Below are positions 1 through 9,991 of a DNA stretch of 64,000 nt, in pieces. Source of the stretch: Acidimicrobiales bacterium (lineage in GTDB: Bacteria > Actinomycetota > Acidimicrobiia > Acidimicrobiales > MedAcidi-G1). The position numbers and the translations under genes are program-made. Below the pieces are notes generated by a model. The model searched no databases and had not been told where the DNA came from. It was given only the letters and a program-made list of their open reading frames with translations. The stretch is taken from assembly GCA_014237715.1 (NCBI GenBank), contig JAAZZG010000002.1:186001-250000 (forward strand), written 5' to 3'. Every line of letters starts with the position of its first letter. Positions within the stretch are counted from its first letter, which is position 1.

Positions 1-15
1 GGCAGAAATCGAAGC

Positions 16-303
16 TCAGGCTGAGGCCTGGCTCTCCTCCTCCTCGTAGCCGAGGTCCCAGGAAATGAGCACGTTCTCGCGCTCGGCGTCTCGGTTGATT
101 CGTTCCCGGTTACGTCGGAACTGCGGATCGTGGGGCGGCAGCAGCATCAGCCGGGCCTGCACACGATCACGGAACAACTCGATCATCTGCGGATCGCCGA
201 AACTGGACCGGACCTCCCAGTGGGGGGCTGACGGACCGAGGTAGACGACGTTCACGTCGCCGACCGGCGGCTGGGGTGGAAGATCGTCGGGGAAGGTGCT
301 CAT
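16..303 (-). CDS. hypothetical protein, 95 aa
   Basis: I do not recognise this family. The protein is small, with a proline-rich N-terminus, a basic middle rich in Arg and Asn, and a very acidic end (YEEEESQASA). It has no cysteines, no signal peptide and no membrane segment, so a cytosolic protein is likely. It lies 71 bp downstream of tatA on the same strand, so it may be co-transcribed with it. No clear Shine-Dalgarno sequence precedes the ATG. The reading frame has the third-position GC bias of its neighbours, which supports a real gene. Confidence 0.6.
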   Translation of the reverse strand: MSTFPDDLPPQPPVGDVNVVYLGPSAPHWEVRSSFGDPQMIELFRDRVQARLMLLPPHDPQFRRNRERINRDAERENVLISWDLGYEEEESQASA

Positions 304-374
304 GGGCGGGGAGTGTACCGGTGGCCCGCCGGGGCTTGGCTGGGGTCGAAAGGTCGGAGCGCCACGTGGGGCGT

Positions 375-575
375 CTACTCCTGGTCCTTCTCCTGTTGGG
401 CCTTCGACTGGTCGTCGGCTTCCGCCTGGCCCTCGGCCAGCCCCCGTTGGAGCTCCTTCTGGGCCTTGCCGAGGTTGCGGGCCAGCTTCGGTATCTGGTT
501 CCCACCGAATAGGACTAGGGCGATGACCGCCACGATGATCAGTTCCTGGGTCCCCAAGAATGCAAGCGTGTTCAT
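375..575 (-). CDS. tatA: Sec-independent translocase TatA, 66 aa
   Basis: TatA forms the oligomeric membrane pore element of the twin-arginine system, which exports folded proteins. One N-terminal membrane helix (about residues 8-21, ELIIVAVIALVLFG) is followed by the family hinge and amphipathic helix (FGGNQIPKLARNLGKAQKEL) and a short acidic, glutamine-rich tail. The length fits short TatA/TatE proteins. tatC is not in the window. The lipoprotein at 51620-52585 carries a twin-arginine-like signal and is a plausible substrate, by inference only. Confidence 0.93.
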   Translation of the reverse strand: MNTLAFLGTQELIIVAVIALVLFGGNQIPKLARNLGKAQKELQRGLAEGQAEADDQSKAQQEKDQE

Positions 576-655
576 GGAGCGACTCTACCTACTGGCCCGG
601 TCACCCGATTGCCCGGTCTCTCTGACGCTCGATGCCGGCCCCGGGGGGACGATCC

Positions 656-940
656 TCAGACAGCCTCGGCGGTCCGGGCAGCAGCCTGCCGTTCAAGGGC
701 CCGCTGGCGACGGATGCGACGACGTTCACGCTCGCTCATACCACCCCAGATGCCAAACTTCTCGCCGTTGGCCAGCGCATACTCCAGGCAGTCCTCCTGA
801 ACGATGCAGCCCCGGCACACCTCCTTGGCTTCCCGCGTGCTCGCCCCACGCTCGGGAAAGAACAGGTCGGGATCCACGCCGAGACAGTTCGACGAATCCT
901 TCCAATCGGTATCCAGGTCGGGTTTTGCGATGATCCCCAT
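656..940 (-). CDS. WhiB-family transcriptional regulator, 94 aa
   Basis: WhiB proteins are actinobacterial 4Fe-4S regulators that bind the primary sigma factor and sense redox state or NO. The four cluster cysteines are visible: SSNCLG, then CRGC, then DCLEYA. The turn motif GIWGG and a basic arginine-rich tail (ERERRRIRRQRALERQ) follow. The frame stays open for 50 more codons upstream, but the ATG at 940 is chosen because AGGCGG lies about 10 nt before it and the protein then has normal WhiB length. It diverges from the MaoC gene across a 300-bp intergenic region. Confidence 0.92.
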   Translation of the reverse strand: MGIIAKPDLDTDWKDSSNCLGVDPDLFFPERGASTREAKEVCRGCIVQEDCLEYALANGEKFGIWGGMSERERRRIRRQRALERQAAARTAEAV

Positions 941-1052
941 GTTGTTGATCCGCCTTTCACCGGTCGATCGACCGGTCGTTCCGGTCGCCGGGGCCAGTCT
1001 CGGTCCCCCCAGAACCCCCGGAAGGGTTCCGTCCATGGAATTACACCACTGT

Positions 1053-1077
1053 GATTCCCTGAATTGCAAGGGAAATC
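1053..1077. promoter_or_regulatory. imperfect inverted repeat in whiB/maoC divergent region
   Basis: The 303-bp stretch 941-1243 between divergent whiB and the MaoC gene has no convincing gene. Its AT-richest part holds an imperfect palindrome: GATTCCCT (1053-1060) facing AGGGAAATC (1069-1077), with one bulged base and an 8-nt spacer. A related GGGATTTTCC follows at once. Position between divergent starts suggests an operator, but this is inference from symmetry and location only. Confidence 0.25.
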
Positions 1078-1243
1078 TGGGATTTTCCAATCAATTCAAC
1101 GTCGGGAGCGAACCGTCCGACGCTGTTCCACAAGGTCCCCAGCACGTCCCCGACCAGCAAGCACCAGTCGACCAGCCCGTAACGTCATCGGTACCACCCG
1201 CCGCGCCTCATCGGACGCGCCCCACACAGACCCGGAAGTGACC

Positions 1244-2089
1244 ATGCCCATCAACCCAGACGCCGTTGGATCAGTCGGCGAACCGACCGAGATCTCCTGG
1301 ACCTCCAAGCAGAGCCTGTTGTACTCCCTCGGTATCGGTGCCGGCGTGGCCGACCCGACCGGCTTCGAACTGGAGTTCACGACCGAGAACTCCGATGGGG
1401 TTCGCCAGCGGGCCTTTCCAACCCAGGGTGTGGTCATGGGCGGAGGCGGCACCCCCGACTTCGGCAGCTTCAACCCGGTCTTCCTGCTACACGCTGAACA
1501 GTCCATCACCTGTCACCGGGAGATTCCCGCCGAGGGCACCGGCATCGCCACTGGGAAGATCGGCCCGATCTGGGACAAAGGCAAGGCGGCGCTCGTCTAC
1601 CTCGAGACCGACGTGACCGACTCCGCCGGCAAACCACTGTGGTCGACCAGCGCAGGGCTCTTTCTGGGCGGTGAGGGCGGCTGGGGCGGGGACCGTGGTC
1701 CGTCAGCCGACTGGGCGGCGCCGGACCGTGACGCCGACCATGTCGTCTCCTACGCCACCCGGGCCGACCAGGCCCTGCTGTACCGCCTCAGCGGCGACCG
1801 CAACCCGCTGCACTCCGACCCGACGTTCGCCTCGGCCGCCGGCTTCGACAATCCGATTCTCCACGGCCTGTGCACCTACGGATTCACCGGCAGGGCCCTA
1901 CTCCACGCGACGTGTGGTTCGGACCCTGCCCGATTCGGCGGCATGGGCGGCCGATTCAAGTCGCCGGTCATGCCCGGCGAGGTACTCGACGTCCATGCAT
2001 GGGAGGTCGACGACGCCACCGTCCTCTTCCAGACTCGGGTCGGCGACCGCGTGGTCTTCGACTCCGGTGTGATGAACCGCCGCTCCTAG
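1244..2089 (+). CDS. MaoC-like dehydratase / enoyl-CoA hydratase 2 type, 281 aa
   Basis: This is a double hot-dog protein of the hydratase-2/MaoC family, which hydrates 2-enoyl-CoA to (R)-3-hydroxyacyl-CoA. The C-terminal hot-dog carries the hydratase motif SGDRNPLHSDPTFA (Asp/His catalytic pair) followed by the conserved PILHGLCTYGFTGRAL. The N-terminal half is the degenerate hot-dog seen in eukaryote-like hydratase 2. ATG 1244 is chosen over upstream in-frame codons because of the GGAAG just before it and the family-like N-terminus (MPINPDAVGS). The GH1-like gene starts 21 bp downstream, probably in the same transcript. Confidence 0.88.
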   Translation: MPINPDAVGSVGEPTEISWTSKQSLLYSLGIGAGVADPTGFELEFTTENSDGVRQRAFPTQGVVMGGGGTPDFGSFNPVFLLHAEQSITCHREIPAEGTGIATGKIGPIWDKGKAALVYLETDVTDSAGKPLWSTSAGLFLGGEGGWGGDRGPSADWAAPDRDADHVVSYATRADQALLYRLSGDRNPLHSDPTFASAAGFDNPILHGLCTYGFTGRALLHATCGSDPARFGGMGGRFKSPVMPGEVLDVHAWEVDDATVLFQTRVGDRVVFDSGVMNRRS

Positions 2090-2110
2090 ACAATCCACGG
2101 TTCCTCGGCA

Positions 2111-3397
2111 ATGAGCCAACCGGACTTCCTATGGGGCGTGACCGACTCGTCCCTGTCGGCCGAGGGGGTGGCACCGACCGCCGACTGGTCGCGCTGGGAA
2201 CGAGACGGACGGGTGCCGACCTCAGGTGACGGAGCCGGGTTCGCCATCGACCACGCCGACGACCTCCGGCTGACAGCCACCCTGGGATTCACCGACGTCC
2301 GCATCACCGTCGAGTGGGCCCGACTCGAACCCCGACCGGGGGTGGTCGACACCGACGCGCTGGACCAGGCCCGCGAGGTGTTGGCTGCCGCCGTCGAGGC
2401 AGGACTACGACCATGGGTCACGTTGGTCCACGGGACGCTCCCCGGCTGGTTCGCTGACGACGAGCGAGGGTTCGCCGAGCCAACGAGTCGAAGCAACTGG
2501 TGGGCCCGCCACGTCGACCGCACCGCCGAAGCCCTCGAGGATCTGGCCGCCGGCTGGGTCCCCATCGAGGACCCCATCGGATCAGCGGTCCGGGGCCACC
2601 TGCTAGGCATCCGCCCCCCCGGCAGGACCGACCCTGAGGCGGCCCGGGTCGCGGTCGAGGGCGCACTCGAAGCAACCTTTGAAGCGTGGCGCCTCCTGCA
2701 GAGCGGTGACGCTCCGGTCATGGGCGTATTCGGCGCACCGTCAGTGTTCGCCGCGTCCCCCGAGGGAGCCACCGGTGAGAACCAGGTTAGGAGCCAGGCC
2801 GGGCAGCAGGCTCTGGACCTGGCCCGCGACCAGGCCCTCCACTGGGAGCAGGTGCTCTGGGATCCGTGGCTGCGGGCCCTGAGCGACGGTGAGATGGCCT
2901 GGCCCTGGCGCTCCCCGGTGGACCGACCGGAGTTGGCCGACGCCTTCGACCTGGTGGGCGTGGTCGTCGACCATCCCGTCGCCGTCGATGGCGACGGGAC
3001 CACGTGGCCCTACCCGGCAGGTGCCCGGGTCGACGCCACCGGTAGCGCGCCCCTCCCCGAGGAACTCGGCGTGGCCCTCCGCAGGATCCACGACCGGCTC
3101 GATGAGCAGAAACTCGTGGTCGCCGGATGGGGCGTGTCCACGACCGACGACGACTGGCGCAACGAGTTACTGCATGACGTCGTCGCTCAGGTCGAATCGG
3201 CGGCGGCCGACGGGATTCCGGTCGTAGGCCTGTTCCACGACGCGCTCCTCGACGGTTACTCCACCGCAGGCTGGGGGCCGGTCCCGGGCTTCGCCGGACC
3301 CCGCGGGCTGGTGACCAGGAATCGACGGCTCAAGGAGAGCGGACGCTGGCTCTCCGAGCACATCACCGGCCGACCACCGGCCGGCTCGCTGTCCTAG
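2111..3397 (+). CDS. GH1-like (beta-glucosidase fold) protein lacking catalytic glutamates, 428 aa
   Basis: The sequence follows glycoside hydrolase family 1 from end to end: FLWGVTDSSLSAEG near the N-terminus, DWSRWE, AIDHADDLRLTATLGFTDVR, and a C-terminal segment ADGIPVVGLFHDALLDGY matching the family's dGvpv.GYf.WSLlDN region. The two catalytic sites differ. The acid/base motif TLNEP aligns with PIEDP (about residue 153), so Glu becomes Asp and Asn becomes Glu. The nucleophile motif TENG aligns with AGWG (about residue 332), so Glu becomes Gly. Normal hydrolysis is therefore unlikely. It sits between the MaoC gene and a GH2-like gene with the same kind of loss. Confidence 0.72.
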   Translation: MSQPDFLWGVTDSSLSAEGVAPTADWSRWERDGRVPTSGDGAGFAIDHADDLRLTATLGFTDVRITVEWARLEPRPGVVDTDALDQAREVLAAAVEAGLRPWVTLVHGTLPGWFADDERGFAEPTSRSNWWARHVDRTAEALEDLAAGWVPIEDPIGSAVRGHLLGIRPPGRTDPEAARVAVEGALEATFEAWRLLQSGDAPVMGVFGAPSVFAASPEGATGENQVRSQAGQQALDLARDQALHWEQVLWDPWLRALSDGEMAWPWRSPVDRPELADAFDLVGVVVDHPVAVDGDGTTWPYPAGARVDATGSAPLPEELGVALRRIHDRLDEQKLVVAGWGVSTTDDDWRNELLHDVVAQVESAAADGIPVVGLFHDALLDGYSTAGWGPVPGFAGPRGLVTRNRRLKESGRWLSEHITGRPPAGSLS

Positions 3398-3515
3398 CGG
3401 CTGGCTCACTCCGGAGCAGGTTCCTCAGGACCCGTCCTATCCGCCACCGCCGGGGCATGGCGGCACCATAGGCAGCGCGCCCTGCTCAGGATCCTGCCGG
3501 GCGTAGCGTCTGGAC

Positions 3516-5654
3516 ATGGTTCATCGGAACATGGAGCCGCCCGGGGCCCTGCCCGGACCATGGCGGGCCATCGAGGCCGACGAGATGCGCCGGCGCGACT
3601 TCCCCCTCGAGGACCTCGACGACGGCGACTGGCCCGAGGTCACGGTGCCCGGTGCATGGCGAAGCACCCCGGCCTTCGCCGACGCCGACGGGCCACTTCT
3701 TTACCGCACCCGCTTTTCCACCCAACCCCTAGGCCTAGATCGGCGAACGTTCTTGGAGTTCGCCGGGGTCACCTTCCAGGGCGACGTGTGGTTGGACGGT
3801 TCGTACCTCGGTCCCACCGAGGGCTCGTTCACCCCCCACCTCCTCGAAGTGACCGAACTGGCCCGGGCCCGCTCCGACCACCTGCTGGCCGTGGAGGCCA
3901 CCTGCCCGCCCGTCGGGAACCCCGACGAGAAACGCACCCTCACCGGGACCACCCAGGGCGGCCGGGGCATCGCCCCGTGGAACCCCGGTGGGATCGGACG
4001 CCCGGTTCGGTTGCGCGAAACCGGACCGGTGCCCCTGCTCCATGTCCGGGTGGTGTGTACCCACGCCACCGAGTCCGTCGCCACCCTGACGTTTCGCGCC
4101 GTGGTCCACGCCGATCGGCCCCGGGCCGCGGTGTTCCACACCCGGGTTCTCGGCGTCGACCACCGCCACCGCCAGTCGTTGGCTGGCGGTGAAAACCGGG
4201 TCGAGTGGTCAGTCCGTATTCCGCGCCCACCACTGTGGTGGCCCGCCAAGATGGGCGATCAGCCACTGCACGACGTGGAGCTCGAGGTGGCCACCGAAGA
4301 CGGTCGGGTCAGCGACCGGGTGGTACGACGCACCGGCTTCCGGTCAGTCCGGATGCACGACCACGTGTGGTCGATAAACGGGGAACGGATCTTCCTCCGA
4401 GGGGCCCTCGTCCCTCCGCTGGACCGAGACCTGTCCCGAGTGACCCACGACTCGGCGGTCGCCGACGTGGCACTGGCCAGCGACGCAGGGCTCAACCTGC
4501 TCCGCTTGGTCGGCCATGTGTCGGCTACCGAGCTGTACACCGAGGCCGACCGGGTCGGGATGCTGGTGTGGCAGGACCTTCCACTAACCGGCGGCTACCA
4601 CCGGGGAGTCCGTGGTCAAGCGGCCCGTCAGGCCCGCGACATGGTCGACCTCCTGGGCCACCACCCGTCGGTGATCGTCTGGTGCGGCCACGACGCCCCC
4701 GATCCCGTGGACCGGACCCGGGCCGTTCCGCGCCAGATGGACCAGCAGCTCCCCACGTGGAATCGGACGGTGCTGGACCGCACGGTTCGCCGCTCCCTCG
4801 ATCAGGCCGATCCTTCCCGCCCGGTGATCAGCCACTCCGGGGTACTGCCCAACCCGCCCCGGGTCGACGACGCGACCGGCCACCTCTGGTTCGGGTGGTA
4901 CAGCGGACGGCGGGGAGACCTCGCCGGATACGTGGATCGGGTACGTCGGGCCGGTCGGTTCGTGTCGGCCTTCGGTGCCCAGTCCGTGCCGGTGGGCTCT
5001 CCGGCCCTGAGCGATGGGACGCTGGACCCCGGATCGTGGCCCATTATCGACTCTGACCGACTGGCCGGCTTCGGAGCCGAGGTCGACGTGCTGGTACGCC
5101 GCGTTCCCCCTGCCAGTTGGTCGGGGCCCGAGGAGTGGGCGGCGGACACTCGTCAACACCAGGACCGCCTACTGCGGATCCAGATCGAGGCCCTGCGCCG
5201 CCGTAAATATCAGCCCACCGGAGGATTCACGCTGGACCGACTCCTCGACGGAGCTCCGGCCATCTCCGGATCTCTGGTCGACCACCTTCGGAACCCCAAG
5301 CCGGCCTACGCCACAGTCACCGCGGCGTGCGCTCCGACCATCGTGGTGGCCGATCCACCGTTGGAGTCCATTGCCCCCCGTTCCACCGTGGCAGTCCAGG
5401 TGGTGGTCGTCCATGACGGTCGGCTCCCTGTCGAACGCTGTCGGGTGGACGCCCGGCTTCGGATCGGCACCGACGGTCCGGTCATCGAACGATCGTGGGG
5501 TGGCGCCCTCGAAGCCGACTCGGTGACCCTGATCGGAACCCTCGAGGTGTCCCTCGGTGACGCCACCGGAGCCGTCACCCTCGAGTTGGACCTGACCATC
5601 GACGGAGCAACCCTCGCCACCAACCGCTACGAGGGTCGGATCGGCGCTGACTGA
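3516..5654 (+). CDS. GH2-like (beta-mannosidase/galactosidase fold) protein lacking catalytic glutamates, 712 aa
   Basis: Domain order resembles glycoside hydrolase family 2: an N-terminal jelly roll (PWRAIEADE, then TFLEFAGVTFQGDVWLDGSYLG), an Ig-like domain ending around PLWWPAKMGDQPLHDVELEV, and a TIM barrel (INGERIFLRGALVPP ... LVWQDLPLTGGYHRG). In the barrel, HPSVIVWCGHDAPD aligns with the family HPSvvlWcGnNE, so the acid/base Glu is Ala. RFVSAFGAQSVP aligns with RFvSEFGfQs.P, so the nucleophile Glu is also Ala. There is no signal peptide. An alternative ATG lies 15 bp downstream. It begins 118 bp after the GH1-like gene on the same strand. Confidence 0.72.
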   Translation: MVHRNMEPPGALPGPWRAIEADEMRRRDFPLEDLDDGDWPEVTVPGAWRSTPAFADADGPLLYRTRFSTQPLGLDRRTFLEFAGVTFQGDVWLDGSYLGPTEGSFTPHLLEVTELARARSDHLLAVEATCPPVGNPDEKRTLTGTTQGGRGIAPWNPGGIGRPVRLRETGPVPLLHVRVVCTHATESVATLTFRAVVHADRPRAAVFHTRVLGVDHRHRQSLAGGENRVEWSVRIPRPPLWWPAKMGDQPLHDVELEVATEDGRVSDRVVRRTGFRSVRMHDHVWSINGERIFLRGALVPPLDRDLSRVTHDSAVADVALASDAGLNLLRLVGHVSATELYTEADRVGMLVWQDLPLTGGYHRGVRGQAARQARDMVDLLGHHPSVIVWCGHDAPDPVDRTRAVPRQMDQQLPTWNRTVLDRTVRRSLDQADPSRPVISHSGVLPNPPRVDDATGHLWFGWYSGRRGDLAGYVDRVRRAGRFVSAFGAQSVPVGSPALSDGTLDPGSWPIIDSDRLAGFGAEVDVLVRRVPPASWSGPEEWAADTRQHQDRLLRIQIEALRRRKYQPTGGFTLDRLLDGAPAISGSLVDHLRNPKPAYATVTAACAPTIVVADPPLESIAPRSTVAVQVVVVHDGRLPVERCRVDARLRIGTDGPVIERSWGGALEADSVTLIGTLEVSLGDATGAVTLELDLTIDGATLATNRYEGRIGAD

Positions 5655-5674
5655 GGCGGAGGCGGAGGCGGAGG
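5654..5674. repeat. short AGGCGG tandem repeat
   Basis: Three tandem AGGCGG units followed by AGG lie immediately after the stop of the GH2-like gene, in the 175-bp leader before sdhC. It is purine-rich and may have arisen by slippage. No function is evident. Confidence 0.5.
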
Positions 5675-5829
5675 TAATTAAGCCGGAGGCCGAGGCGGCC
5701 CGGACCCCTCTCGCCGATCGGGCATCTGAAGTGGCAATCGGCTCGGAGATGGCCATCCCCAGCGCGCTACTCTCACCCCTGCGAACGCCTCACCCCGTCG
5801 CACCGGGGCCATCGCACGAGGAGGGAACC

Positions 5830-6669
5830 ATGGCCCAAACCACTGAGCAGCGCTACCGCGTGACGCCGGTCCGACCGCGAGGCCGCCAGTGGCCCTTCCC
5901 TCTGAACCTGTACCAGAGCGCGGTGGGTCGCAAGTGGGTCATGGCCCTCACCGGCATCGGCCTCATCGGGTTCGTGCTGGTCCACATGATCGGCAACCTC
6001 CACCTGTATGAGGGCCCAGCCCGGATGCACGAGTACGCCGAGTCGCTACGGACTCTGGGCGGAGGCCTGGTACCCAAGGGCGCTGTCCTGTGGCTGATGC
6101 GGGCGGGCCTGCTGACCATGTTCGTCCTGCACCTGCACTCGGCCATCACCCTCAGTCGGATGAGTGGCAACGCCAGTGAGAAGGCCAGCATGGTCAGCGG
6201 AGCCAAGAAGTACGAGGGTGGGCGGGACCACATTGCCGCCACCTTCGCTAGCCGCACCATGCGCTGGACCGGCCCGATCATTGCCCTGTTCATCCTCTAC
6301 CACCTGGCCGATCTGACCTGGGGCTGGTGGCTGGGCGACGACTTTGTGGCCGGCGATCCGTACCACAATGTGGCGACGTCACTCGGGGCCCTACCGGTGG
6401 CCATCCTCTACGTGGTGGCCAATATGGCGTTGGCGTGGCACATCTACCACGGGGCCTGGTCGATGTTCCAGAGCCTCGGTGTGAATAACCCCCGTTACAA
6501 CCACCTGCGGCGCACGTTGGCCACCAGCCTGGCCGGGCTGATCCTCGTCGGGAACCTGAGCTTCCCGATCCTCACCCAAGCCGGCCTAGTCGACGATGAC
6601 GGGCGCCAGTGCCCAGCCGACGCCACACACGTTCTCGAATGCCTGGCCGACCAGGCGTCGGACCACTAG
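5830..6669 (+). CDS. sdhC: succinate dehydrogenase cytochrome b558 subunit, 279 aa
   Basis: This is the membrane anchor of a three-subunit succinate:quinone reductase of the b558 type, in which one five-helix protein replaces separate SdhC and SdhD. Hydrophobic segments include [37 protein letters not shown], a helix near [13 protein letters not shown] and [15 protein letters not shown]. Histidines in [16 protein letters not shown] and YHLADL are heme-ligand candidates by family analogy. ATG 5830 is chosen because GAGGAGGG lies 5 nt upstream; the frame stays open 33 codons further. sdhA starts 23 bp downstream. Confidence 0.93.
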
Positions 6670-6692
6670 GCGACGGATCGGCAGGAGACACC

Positions 6693-8648
6693 ATGAGCAA
6701 CGCAACCCCGCCTGACCAGGCCACGACGAGCCCGGCCCTGAACAGCAAGATCCCTACCGGCGATGTGGCCGACATGTGGGAGAACCACAAGTTCTCCATG
6801 AATCTGGTCAACCCCAACAACAAGCGCAAGTTCGACGTGATCGTCGTCGGTACCGGTCTGGCCGGTGCCTCGGCAGCTGCTTCGCTCGGCGAGTTGGGGT
6901 ACCGGGTGAAGGCCTTTACCTTCCACGACAGCCCCCGACGTGCCCACTCGATCGCCGCACAGGGCGGCATCAACGCGGCGAAGAACTACCCGAACGACGG
7001 CGACTCGGTCCACCGACTGTTCTATGACACCGTCAAGGGTGGCGACTACCGCTCCCGGGAGGCCAACGTCCACCGGCTGGCCGAGGTCTCGGTCAATATC
7101 ATCGACCAGGCCACCGCCCAGGGCGTGCCGTTCGCCCGCGACTACGGCGGCCTGCTCGACAATCGCTCGTTCGGTGGCGCCCAGGTGTCTCGGACCTTCT
7201 ACGCCCGTGGCCAGACCGGGCAGCAGCTACTCATCGGCGCCTACTCGGCCCTGATGCGCCAGGTAGCCGCCGGGACCGTCGAACTGCACAGCCGCGCCGA
7301 ACTGCTCGACGTCGTCAAGAAGGACGGTCGGGCGTGCGGCATCGTCACCCGTGACCTCGTCTCCGGCGAGGTCACGCCCCACTCGGCGCACGCCGTGGTG
7401 CTGGCCACCGGCGGCTACGGCAACGTCTACTTTCTGTCCACCAACGCGATGATGTGCAACGTCACGGCGGCCTGGCGGGCCCACAAGAAGGGCGCCTTCT
7501 TCGCCAACCCCTGCTACACACAGATCCACCCGACCTGCATACCGGTCAGCGACGACTTCCAGTCCAAGCTCACCCTGATGTCCGAATCGCTACGCAACGA
7601 TGGTCGCATCTGGGTACCCGACGCAAACGACGACGCACGTATGGCCGCCGAGATCCCCGAGGCTGAACGCGACTACTACCTGGAACGCAAATACCCGGCC
7701 TTTGGAAACCTGGTGCCACGTGACGTGGCGTCGCGTAATGCCAAAACGGTGTGTGACGAGGGCCGGGGCGTAGGCCCATTGAAGAACGGTGTGTTCCTTG
7801 ACTTCCAGGTAGCCATCGCCCGTGACGGCGTGGATGCCATCTCCGAGAAGTACGGGAACCTGTTCGATATGTACCACCGGATTACCGGTGAGAACCCATA
7901 CGAGCAGCCGATGCGGATCTATCCGGCCATCCACTACACGATGGGTGGCCTTTGGGTGGACTACCACCTGATGACCTCGGTGCCTGGCCTGTACTCGATC
8001 GGTGAGTCCAACTTCTCGGACCATGGCGCCAACCGCCTCGGAGCGAGTGCCCTCATGCAGGGCCTGGCTGACGGCTACTTCGTGCTGCCGTACACCATCG
8101 GTGACGATCTGGCCGGCCTGCTCGGCCAGTCTGCAGTACCTACCAACGACCCGGTGTTCACCGAGGCGATCGCCGGTGTGGCCGATGAGCAGAATCGCTG
8201 GCTGTCCGTCAACGGGACGAAGTCGGTCGATTACTACCACCGGGAACTCGGTCGCATCACCTGGGAACATATTGGCATGGGTCGCACCGGGGCCGGCCTC
8301 ACCCGGGCCCTCTCGGAGATACCGGCCCTGCGCGACGAGTTCCACTCCAACGTGCGGGTGCTGGGCAGCGCAGAGACCCTCAACCAGTCCCTCGAGAAGG
8401 CCGGCCGGGTGGCCGACTTCTTCGACCTGGCTGAACTCATGGCTCGAGACGCCCTGGAGCGGGAGGAGTCATGCGGTGGCCACTTCCGCGAGGAACACCA
8501 GACGGCCGAGGGTGAGGCCCAGCGCGACGACGAAAACTTCGCCCACGTGGCGGCCTGGGAGTGGAACGGCGAGGGCACGGCCCAGACCCGCCACCGCGAG
8601 GAACTGACTTTCGAGAACGTGGCGCTGGCACAGCGCTCCTACAAGTAG
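6693..8648 (+). CDS. sdhA: succinate dehydrogenase flavoprotein subunit, 651 aa
   Basis: SdhA oxidises succinate to fumarate with a covalently bound FAD. The Rossmann motif [19 protein letters not shown] lies near residue 50. The flavinylation region [14 protein letters not shown], the substrate-site stretch [12 protein letters not shown], and the C-terminal [18 protein letters not shown] follow. The capping-domain and helical sequence [18 protein letters not shown] is typical of the fumarate-reductase-like SdhA that pairs with b558 anchors. ATG 6693 follows GGAG by 6 nt and gives the family's extended N-terminus. It is the middle gene of sdhCAB. Confidence 0.96.
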
Positions 8649-8681
8649 GCCCGGGCCAGAGAGGAACAGGGGAAAACCAAC

Positions 8682-9479
8682 ATGTCTTCAGGACCAGTTT
8701 CTTCAGAGCACGGCACCGTTATCAATGTCACCCTCAAGGTGTGGCGTCAGGATGGACCGGACGACGCCGGTCGCTTCGACGTGCACCAGCAGGCCATCAG
8801 CACCGATGCCTCCTTCCTCGAGATGCTCGACCAGCTCAACGAACAACTCAACGACGCCGGCAACGAGCCGGTGGCCTTCGAGAGCGACTGCCGCGAAGGC
8901 ATCTGCGGCACGTGTGGCGTGATGATCAACGGGCGGGCGCATGGTCCGCAGAAAGCCACGGCCACCTGCCAGTTGCACATGCGGGAGTTCCGCGACGGCG
9001 ACGAGATCGTCATCGAACCGTTCCGGGCGGCCGGTTTCCCGGTGCTGCGCGACCTGGCCGTCGACCGTTCACCGCTGGATCGCATCATTGAGGCCGGCGG
9101 CTACATCTCGGTCAACACGGGTGCGGCATCTGACGCCAATCTCACCCCCGTGCCCAAGGTGGCCGCTGACATGGCGTTCGACGCCGCGGCATGCATTGGT
9201 TGTGGGGCCTGCGTGGCGGCGTGTCCGAACTCGGCCGCCCAGTTGTTCACCTCGGCCAAGATCGGCCACCTCGGACTCCTACCCCAGGGCCAGGCCGAGC
9301 GTTGGAGTCGGACCGAGAGCATGGTCGAGACCATGGAGGAGTTCTTCGGCTCGTGCACCAACCACGGTGAGTGCTCCGAGGCGTGCCCGAAGGAGATCTC
9401 GCTGGACTTCATCGCCTTCATGAACCGTGACTACATGAAGGCCAAGGTCAAGAACCGAGCGCTGGCCGGCCAACGCTGA
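8682..9479 (+). CDS. sdhB: succinate dehydrogenase iron-sulfur subunit, 265 aa
   Basis: SdhB carries electrons from the flavin to the membrane anchor through three clusters. A 2Fe-2S ferredoxin domain has [10 protein letters not shown] and a later ATATC. The C-terminal domain has [14 protein letters not shown] (4Fe-4S) and [20 protein letters not shown] (3Fe-4S and 4Fe-4S ligands). Length fits the family. AGGGGA lies about 9 nt upstream of the ATG. It closes the sdhCAB operon, and a multicopper-oxidase remnant begins about 40 bp after its stop. Confidence 0.96.
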
Positions 9480-9519
9480 CCCGGCACCGGGGGCCGGATC
9501 TCGTCCATCTCCCTGCAAG

Positions 9520-9735
9520 GTCGGCTTCCTCCTCAACTATCCGTACCTGACCGACACCATCAACGCGGCGCCCGGCGAGCGCTATCCGGTACTGGTCCGT
9601 TCCGACGAACCCGGTGTCTGGGCATGCCACTGCCACATCCTCAGCCATATAGAACGCAACGACGGGATGTTCGGCATGGTCACCGCCATGATCGTCCAGG
9701 AGGCCTGGGTAACAGCCCATCTCCAGAATCGATGA
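9520..9735 (+). pseudogene. C-terminal remnant of a multicopper oxidase
   Basis: A stop-free stretch of about 71 codons without a start encodes the last part of a multicopper oxidase: DTINAAPGERYPVLVRSDEP, then GVWACHCHILSHIERNDGMF and GMVTAMIV, ending at TGA 9733-9735. The HCHxxxH arrangement plus following Met is the type-1/type-3 copper ligand set of the last cupredoxin domain. Upstream of about 9520 the frame no longer looks like a cupredoxin and runs toward the sdhB stop, so at least 80 percent of the gene is missing. No ribosome site is present. Confidence 0.75.
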
Positions 9736-9892
9736 TGCATCCGGTTGACAGAAGCATGCTCCGGCGCGACGGTTGACGTGCCACCCGATTCCGCGACCAT
9801 CCCGACGCTCCACTGACCGGGGCACCGGGTATACAGCGGATCTAGAGGTGGACGGACACGGCAACGACCACGAGTGAAGGGGAGGAGATCAC

Positions 9893-9991
9893 ATGCAACC
9901 TGAACCCTCCCCCTCGTTGGTCCCGACCCCAACGATCGCCCCGTTCGGGGCATTGACGGGCCCGCCCTGTCGATCACCGCCCAACGGGTGA
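9893..9991 (+). CDS. possible small ORF, 32 aa, strong ribosome site
   Basis: In the otherwise gene-free 9736-10146 stretch, GGGGAGGAG lies 6-8 nt upstream of an ATG opening a 32-codon frame (MQPEPSPSLVPTPTIAPFGA and a further 12 residues). The product is proline-rich with a single cysteine and matches nothing I know. It may be a real small protein, a leader peptide, or the intact start of a decayed gene such as the copper-oxidase remnant's locus. The rest of the gap, 9992-10146, shows nothing I can name. Confidence 0.25.
   Translation: MQPEPSPSLVPTPTIAPFGALTGPPCRSPPNG

Follow-up and report, generated by a model that had tools for sequence, protein, structure and literature searches.

The window analysed here is a stretch of 64,000 nucleotides (contig positions 186001-250000) of a 2.3 Mb genome that is 92.6% complete and whose nearest named relatives are Acidimicrobiales/Acidimicrobiaceae MAGs and the single-cell genome AG-410-I20. 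On the forward strand, the genes of interest follow each other in the order MaoC hydratase, GH1-like, GH2-like, sdhC, sdhA and sdhB. The MaoC gene (1259..2089, +) encodes an ordinary enzyme of the MaoC/MFE-2 hydratase-2-like type, as indicated by its profile match and by the complete GDxNPLH motif read in its translation. It is tightly spaced with the GH1-like gene (2111..3397, +), which encodes a GH1-fold pseudoenzyme of 428 aa (Pfam, alignment, model and match to 1vff) that is not a constant partner of the next gene. The GH2-like ORF (3516..5654, +) encodes a GH2-fold pseudoenzyme of 712 aa, as supported by Pfam, phmmer, the structural model and a match to 6bye. Directly 3' of it lies sdhC (5731..6669, +), recognized by homology across loci, followed by sdhA (6609..8648, +) and sdhB (8682..9479, +); the first possible start is given for sdhC and sdhA. 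A putative WhiB-like iron-sulfur regulator gene is located close to this unit (656-1090, -), and a small, apparently related gene was observed near the locus in several relatives.

Fold and catalytic residues of the GH2-like protein

Pfam, NCBIfam and PDB sequence searches agreed in assigning the ORF to GH2. The Pfam domains PF22666 and PF00703 scored above cut-off, the TIM barrel domain scored below it, and the nearest solved relatives by sequence were GH2 beta-mannosidases. The true start is likely Met6 (3531), because two orthologues begin there and because the pLDDT of the model falls below 50 in residues 1-6 and nowhere else. The AlphaFold2 model was built from 59 family members (pLDDT 93.4, pTM 0.93), and its best solved match was 6bye, a GH2 exo-beta-mannanase (Z 35.5, rmsd 3.5, 659 residues aligned). 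The predicted structure presents the domain order and fold of GH2: an N-terminal sugar-binding-like beta-sandwich (approximately aa 12-135; 3549..3920, +), which is kept in truncated relatives; an Ig-like domain (approximately aa 136-278; 3921..4349, +) defined by PF00703 and by strands in the model; a TIM barrel with a lost active site (approximately aa 279-615; 4350..5360, +) defined by phmmer, alignment and model; and a C-terminal beta-sandwich (approximately aa 616-712; 5361..5651, +), the fastest-evolving part of the protein.

The window protein lacks the acid/base Glu that follows Asn in GH2 enzymes, and presents Asp393 (4692..4694, +) and Ala394 (4695..4697, +) in place of this pair. 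The nucleophile Glu is likewise absent and replaced by Ala485 (4968..4970, +). In phmmer alignments to two mutants of one GH2 exo-beta-mannanase, WCGHDA paired with WCGNNA of 6byi, which carries E477A at the acid/base position, and VSAFGAQS paired with MSAYGLQS of 6byg, which carries E575A at the nucleophile position. The protein naturally bears both of the Ala residues that were engineered to inactivate a relative, and the family alignment places Ala394 and Ala485 at the same positions. These alignments agree with the original prediction that this gene had lost both its acid/base and its nucleophile. The reference motifs used there (CGNNE and vSEFGfQS) were slightly inexact: the family's own intact motif, as read in orthologues that belong to other families in the order, is WCGHNEP...VSEFGAQ. 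The family alignment and the tree further identified Gly359 (4590..4592, +) as a replacement for the Trp of the PLQWGY motif and Asp393 as a replacement for Asn.

Both Glu were absent throughout the window's family group (29 of 29 non-redundant sequences), which excludes a chance loss. The nucleophile column was Ala in 29/29 of them and the acid/base column was occupied by A, T, G, S, V or N. The D of the segment that reads DPDWNPGG in intact proteins was also lost in this group. Because both catalytic Glu are gone, the reaction of a retaining glycosidase should be impossible, and the window protein is very probably non-catalytic, judging from its residues. Many other positions were retained: His334, Asp354, His392 and His456 occur in both intact and dead GH2 groups, the aromatic barrel residues W352, W389, W415 and W461 are fixed, and at 114 positions the intact and dead groups share one residue, conserved to 93% or more in each.

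The dN/dS ratios of close-relative pairs were computed by the method of Nei and Gojobori with our own script. Pairs of dead GH2 yielded 0.10-0.24 and intact pairs 0.13-0.18; two dead pairs of family f17 with dS above 1 yielded 0.05-0.07. This comparison, which had been proposed along with the original prediction, therefore returned values near those of intact relatives and not near 1, and the status of a pseudogene under relaxed selection is ruled out by the range of 0.10-0.24. We did not find stop codons within the GH2 ORF of any member of the window's family group. When divergence was expressed relative to SdhA, the median ratio was 3.99 for dead and 2.55 for intact GH2 (approximately 1.5 times faster), which indicates that the constraint on dead GH2 is somewhat relaxed, yet far from absent. 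The acceleration was not found relative to the ATPase gene c5, which is possibly itself relaxed.

Shortened copies were also found. In three genomes of a single genus within family f59, GH2 stops in the middle of the barrel, right after the conserved ADPTRP (L260:6782-8221, L261:6785-8245 and L262:4650-5909). These truncated copies are still under purifying selection, with dN/dS of 0.19-0.27 for the N-terminal domains and of 0.36-0.41 for what is left of the barrel. A shrunken GH2 barrel was present in two genomes of family f16.

The adjacent GH1-like gene

The GH1-like protein matched Pfam PF00232 with 68.5 bits (cut-off 22.6). Its model (pLDDT 86.3, pTM 0.89) presents the (beta/alpha)8 barrel of GH1 beta-glycosidases and aligned to 1vff over 387 residues (Z 39.9, rmsd 3.1). 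The alignment to relatives revealed EDP in place of NEP, with Glu153-Asp154 (2567..2572, +) replacing the Asn-Glu of the acid/base site, and AGWG in place of the (T/A)ENG-type motif, with Gly339 (3125..3127, +) replacing the nucleophile Glu. The protein is also altered at the Gln, Tyr, Trp and second Glu positions of intact GH1 relatives, which carry NEP ... AE-G and occur in other families. Two adjacent genes from two glycosidase families have thus both lost their catalytic residues, as had been claimed. These two genes are the only GH1 match and the only GH2 match in the source genome. The dead GH1 of the window's group yielded dN/dS of 0.12-0.19 where dS was measurable. In one same-genus GH1-like gene, L068:12111-13388(-), the acid/base position reads DD but the nucleophile column is again Glu (VVAECG), a possible single-base reversal.

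The GH1 gene was missing in 7/17 genomes of the same genus, all of which keep GH2. In family f7, a dead GH1 adjoins a usually intact GH2, and in L280, from a genome of an outgroup order, an intact GH1 lies beside a dead GH2. These opposite combinations indicate that GH1 and GH2 can retire independently. A tree-aware test of coupling between the catalytic losses of GH1 and GH2, with three independent contrasts on supported branches, was not significant. The f7 GH1 are shrunken to approximately 316-360 residues (L139:5507-6457, L152:5397-6464 and L184:1960-2961) and present FEAP/K-or-R style losses at both catalytic positions, next to GH2 that mostly keep the nucleophile. The GH2 of L280 independently reached the HDAP/SAFG double-Ala state of the window.

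Gene order and repeated losses across the class

GH2 orthologues were found in 36 of the 41 nearest genomes. In the order, 103 of 198 sampled genomes presented a GH2 at E ≤1e-30, and 95 of these were counted as orthologues, distant paralogues being left out. Orthologues were also found in other orders of the same class. A phylum-wide sample of 198 genomes contained a single GH2 homologue outside the class, in one genome (L285, G468), which is a candidate for horizontal transfer. Each genome carries one gene of this family, so the losses in GH2 did not follow gene duplication.

The usual order across families is a VWA gene, a MoxR-type AAA gene on the opposite strand, GH2 and sdhCAB, with MaoC and GH1 variable, and the arrangement conserved class-wide is GH2 beside sdhCAB. 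A same-strand sdhA was found within 1.5 kb after GH2 in 30 of the 46 double-dead loci, and 7 more were on short contigs. In family f7, the sdh genes are on the strand opposite to GH2, and co-transcription of GH2 and sdh is therefore not universal. Most sister genomes with GH1 present the opposite-strand MoxR-type ATPase gene between GH1 and GH2, and no match to this gene was found in the source genome. The loss of this intervening gene indicates that the direct adjacency of GH1 and GH2 in the window is derived, most likely the product of a deletion. MaoC was found near 27/46 double-dead GH2 and 1/85 intact GH2, confined to few lineages.

The original prediction proposed that the GH1/GH2 pair forms a conserved non-catalytic system linked to the MaoC gene, and that this gene order would be conserved elsewhere. 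GH2 is indeed conserved and under selection, both Glu being absent in the entire family group at low dN/dS, but the pair is not the unit since GH1 is absent from part of the genus. The link to MaoC was not supported, the constant neighbour being sdhCAB, and the MaoC/GH1/GH2 triad was rejected as a unit because both GH1 and MaoC vary across genomes. The finding is that of a recurrently retired GH2 held beside sdhCAB, not of a GH1/GH2/MaoC system.

Across the 198 sampled genomes of the order, GH2 and the SdhA type of the window were both present in 77 and both absent in 69, with 18 + 34 discordant genomes (odds ratio 8.7, relatedness being ignored). GH2 was missing in 34 of the 111 genomes with the window-type SdhA, one of them 95% complete and from the window's own family group, which indicates that the GH2 protein is dispensable to SDH. 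A different SdhA type, approximately 28-31% identical to that of the window, sometimes adjoins a GH2 that keeps its nucleophile (L082:11969-13708, L088:12501-14348, L193, L195, L196, L201, L223 and L281). The SDH type changes approximately 8 times on the GH2 tree with GH2 staying put, as though one SDH had replaced another at the same site. An association of dead GH2 with the type of the adjoining SDH was considered (raw Fisher p 0.012), and its support disappeared once relatedness was taken into account.

We built a tree from 187 GH2 sequences of the order sample and named loci together with 31 loci from class-level, phylum-level and further f7 genomes. After reduction at 97% identity and exclusion of the catalytic columns, the tree contained 179 rows: 85 with both Glu and 94 without one or both. 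When the out-of-class homologue G468 served as root and losses could not be reversed, the full tree required 20 losses of the nucleophile; this number fell to 17 when nodes below 80 were collapsed and to 13 when nodes below 95 were. Either Glu was lost at least 20 times, and unrooted parsimony yielded 16 nucleophile changes. In the outgroup orders, GH2 is mostly intact, GH1 is intact where it occurs and the gene order is the same. This suggests that the active state is ancestral, the activity being read from the residues.

Asp393 predominates in 14 of the 17 inferred lineages of nucleophile loss compared to 7 of the 101 rows that retain the nucleophile, and Trp359 was lost in 16 of the 17. In rows such as L162 and L199, which still have the nucleophile, residue 393 is already Asp and Trp359 is gone, a state to be expected from an erosion that starts at the sugar-binding site. 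The convergent change of Asn393 to Asp was considered as proof of a new chemistry and rejected as such. The count is striking, but a tree-aware test of independent pairs, which pointed in the same direction with few contrasts, was not significant (median p 0.125).

Role of the retained protein and comparison with known systems

We consider it probable, at approximately 0.7, that the GH2-like protein is a pseudoenzyme that derives from an ancestrally two-function GH2, from which activity was repeatedly discarded and in which a non-catalytic role was kept by selection. As judged from sequence and model, it would be a correctly folded protein of the GH2 beta-mannosidase type that has lost the catalytic reaction. 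It would descend from an active GH2 that, in the class ancestor, already adjoined sdhCAB and possessed a second, non-catalytic role. Many lineages may then have dropped the sugar-cutting activity, each on its own, and purifying selection would have been sustained by the second role. Intact orthologues at the same locus point to descent from an active enzyme, the residues were lost clade-wide and selection is purifying, as in a maintained pseudoenzyme. That a gene present in one copy lost its activity again and again and was nonetheless retained argues for another duty, one without need of the catalytic Glu. We therefore infer that activity was lost and that a non-catalytic role exists; the GH2-like protein probably has a second, non-cutting job, previously undescribed. 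A literature search returned no published description of this GH2 pseudoenzyme family, in line with the earlier statement that no described family of this kind was known.

The best lead is a role connected to SDH, the constant neighbour, whose genes usually form one operon-like unit with GH2. A link between the GH2-like protein and succinate dehydrogenase is plausible, and the retained role might be to bind SDH or to act in its assembly or regulation, a proposal that we make tentatively and with the odds somewhat against it. A more specific version is doubtful: that the protein is a new accessory or regulatory factor of SDH of glycosidase origin, which attaches to SDH or to the apparatus that assembles it, possibly together with MoxR/VWA, in a role that predates the catalytic losses in more than a dozen lineages. 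Linkage to sdhCAB across lineages was found, as such a factor should display; presence whenever that SDH occurs was not.

Other functions can be envisioned for the same protein. It is possible, although rather unlikely, that it acts as a lectin or sensor whose pocket has kept its affinity for a sugar or a sugar phosphate and which reports this ligand to central metabolism. The full fold is kept, many aromatic residues of the barrel are fixed, and the nearest enzyme still crystallized with an intact structure when its nucleophile or its acid/base residue had been mutated. However, the PLQWGY Trp and the Asn that precedes the acid/base position disappeared in step with the Glu, and the D of DPDWNPGG was lost in the window's group, both of which argue against the original ligand. 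It is improbable that the pocket was instead re-tooled for a different chemistry. Nearly every independent nucleophile loss is accompanied by the change of Asn393 to Asp and of Trp359 to Gly or another residue, and the four polar residues His334 to His456 listed above stay fixed in dead GH2. However, these same residues are also fixed in intact enzymes, the acid/base position varies freely in the window's group, the pair test on Asp393 was not significant, and the mid-barrel truncation in f59 leaves no pocket.

A dedicated complex of the GH1-like and GH2-like pseudoenzymes linked to MaoC is more improbable still. Both proteins are dead and under purifying selection in ten genomes of the same genus, and the MaoC and GH1-like genes are tightly spaced in the window; against this, GH1 is dispensed with by several genomes of the genus, the losses are decoupled in f7 and L280, the tree-aware association was not significant and the adjacency was created by deletion of the intervening MoxR gene. 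Slow decay of a pseudogene, i.e., a leftover ORF kept mainly as the head of the sdh transcription unit, is already disfavoured and very improbable. It would account for the faster divergence of GH2 than in intact relatives relative to SdhA, for the truncated and barrel-eroded copies and for the complete absence of GH2 in some members of the window's family group. It is difficult to reconcile with low dN/dS across a clade that extends down to approximately 50% identity, with ORFs free of stops in every group member and with the 114 positions conserved in both groups.

The preferred reading, an enzyme repeatedly retired from a two-function ancestor, differs from the usual course in which pseudoenzymes are traced to a freed duplicate: here, a single-copy, syntenic bacterial enzyme was retired repeatedly without duplication. 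All stages are visible, from intact proteins to those with altered Asn/Trp, a lost nucleophile, both Glu lost and a truncated barrel, and a comparison of the living and dead forms that occur in nature can test what other role the enzyme has. Should the link to SDH be true, central respiration in a large actinobacterial group would include an unknown component. Annotation pipelines may label such proteins beta-mannosidase or beta-galactosidase and thereby credit genomes with an absent sugar degradation.

The GH2 beta-mannosidases and exo-beta-mannanases (6bye/6byc of Xanthomonas, Man2A 2je8 of Bacteroides and 5n6u of Dictyoglomus) share the architecture and fold of the GH2-like protein (Z 32-36 over approximately 650 residues), and their motif positions align by sequence. 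Unlike them, the GH2-like protein has both Glu changed to Ala and the PLQWGY Trp and pre-acid/base Asn replaced, and it is fixed beside sdhCAB. Klotho is a GH1-fold pseudoenzyme. Heparanase-2 is also a glycosidase-fold pseudoenzyme (PMC12406646), and the pectinase pseudoenzymes of beetles are tied to gene duplication (PMC6549527). All of these have a glycoside hydrolase fold with missing catalytic residues and another use, but they are all eukaryotic and none is a GH2, bacterial or located beside respiratory genes. In the fungal Dis3L2/Ssd1 pseudonucleases, catalytic residues were lost independently at least 4 times in a mostly orthologous protein, and the authors infer a bifunctional ancestor with a conserved non-catalytic role in RNA binding (PMC8097288). 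This recurrent loss in a mostly orthologous protein is a precedent for the logic of a two-function ancestor (PMC8097288), although it concerns another enzyme class, in fungi, with at least 4 losses compared to at least 13 here and with a second function that is known.

In E. coli, RavA-ViaA, a MoxR AAA+ protein with a VWA partner, acts on fumarate reductase (PMC10585395). Genes for a MoxR-type ATPase and a VWA-domain protein lie beside SDH in many of the genomes studied here, a likeness that may be one of analogy, not homology; the window genome differs in having lost its MoxR-type ATPase gene, and the arrangement is absent near positions 1-9500 of the window. In L064, for example, genes for a putative MoxR/Mg-chelatase-type AAA ATPase and a VWA-domain protein, at 8417-9901(-) and 2684-4714(-), are located near GH2 and sdh.
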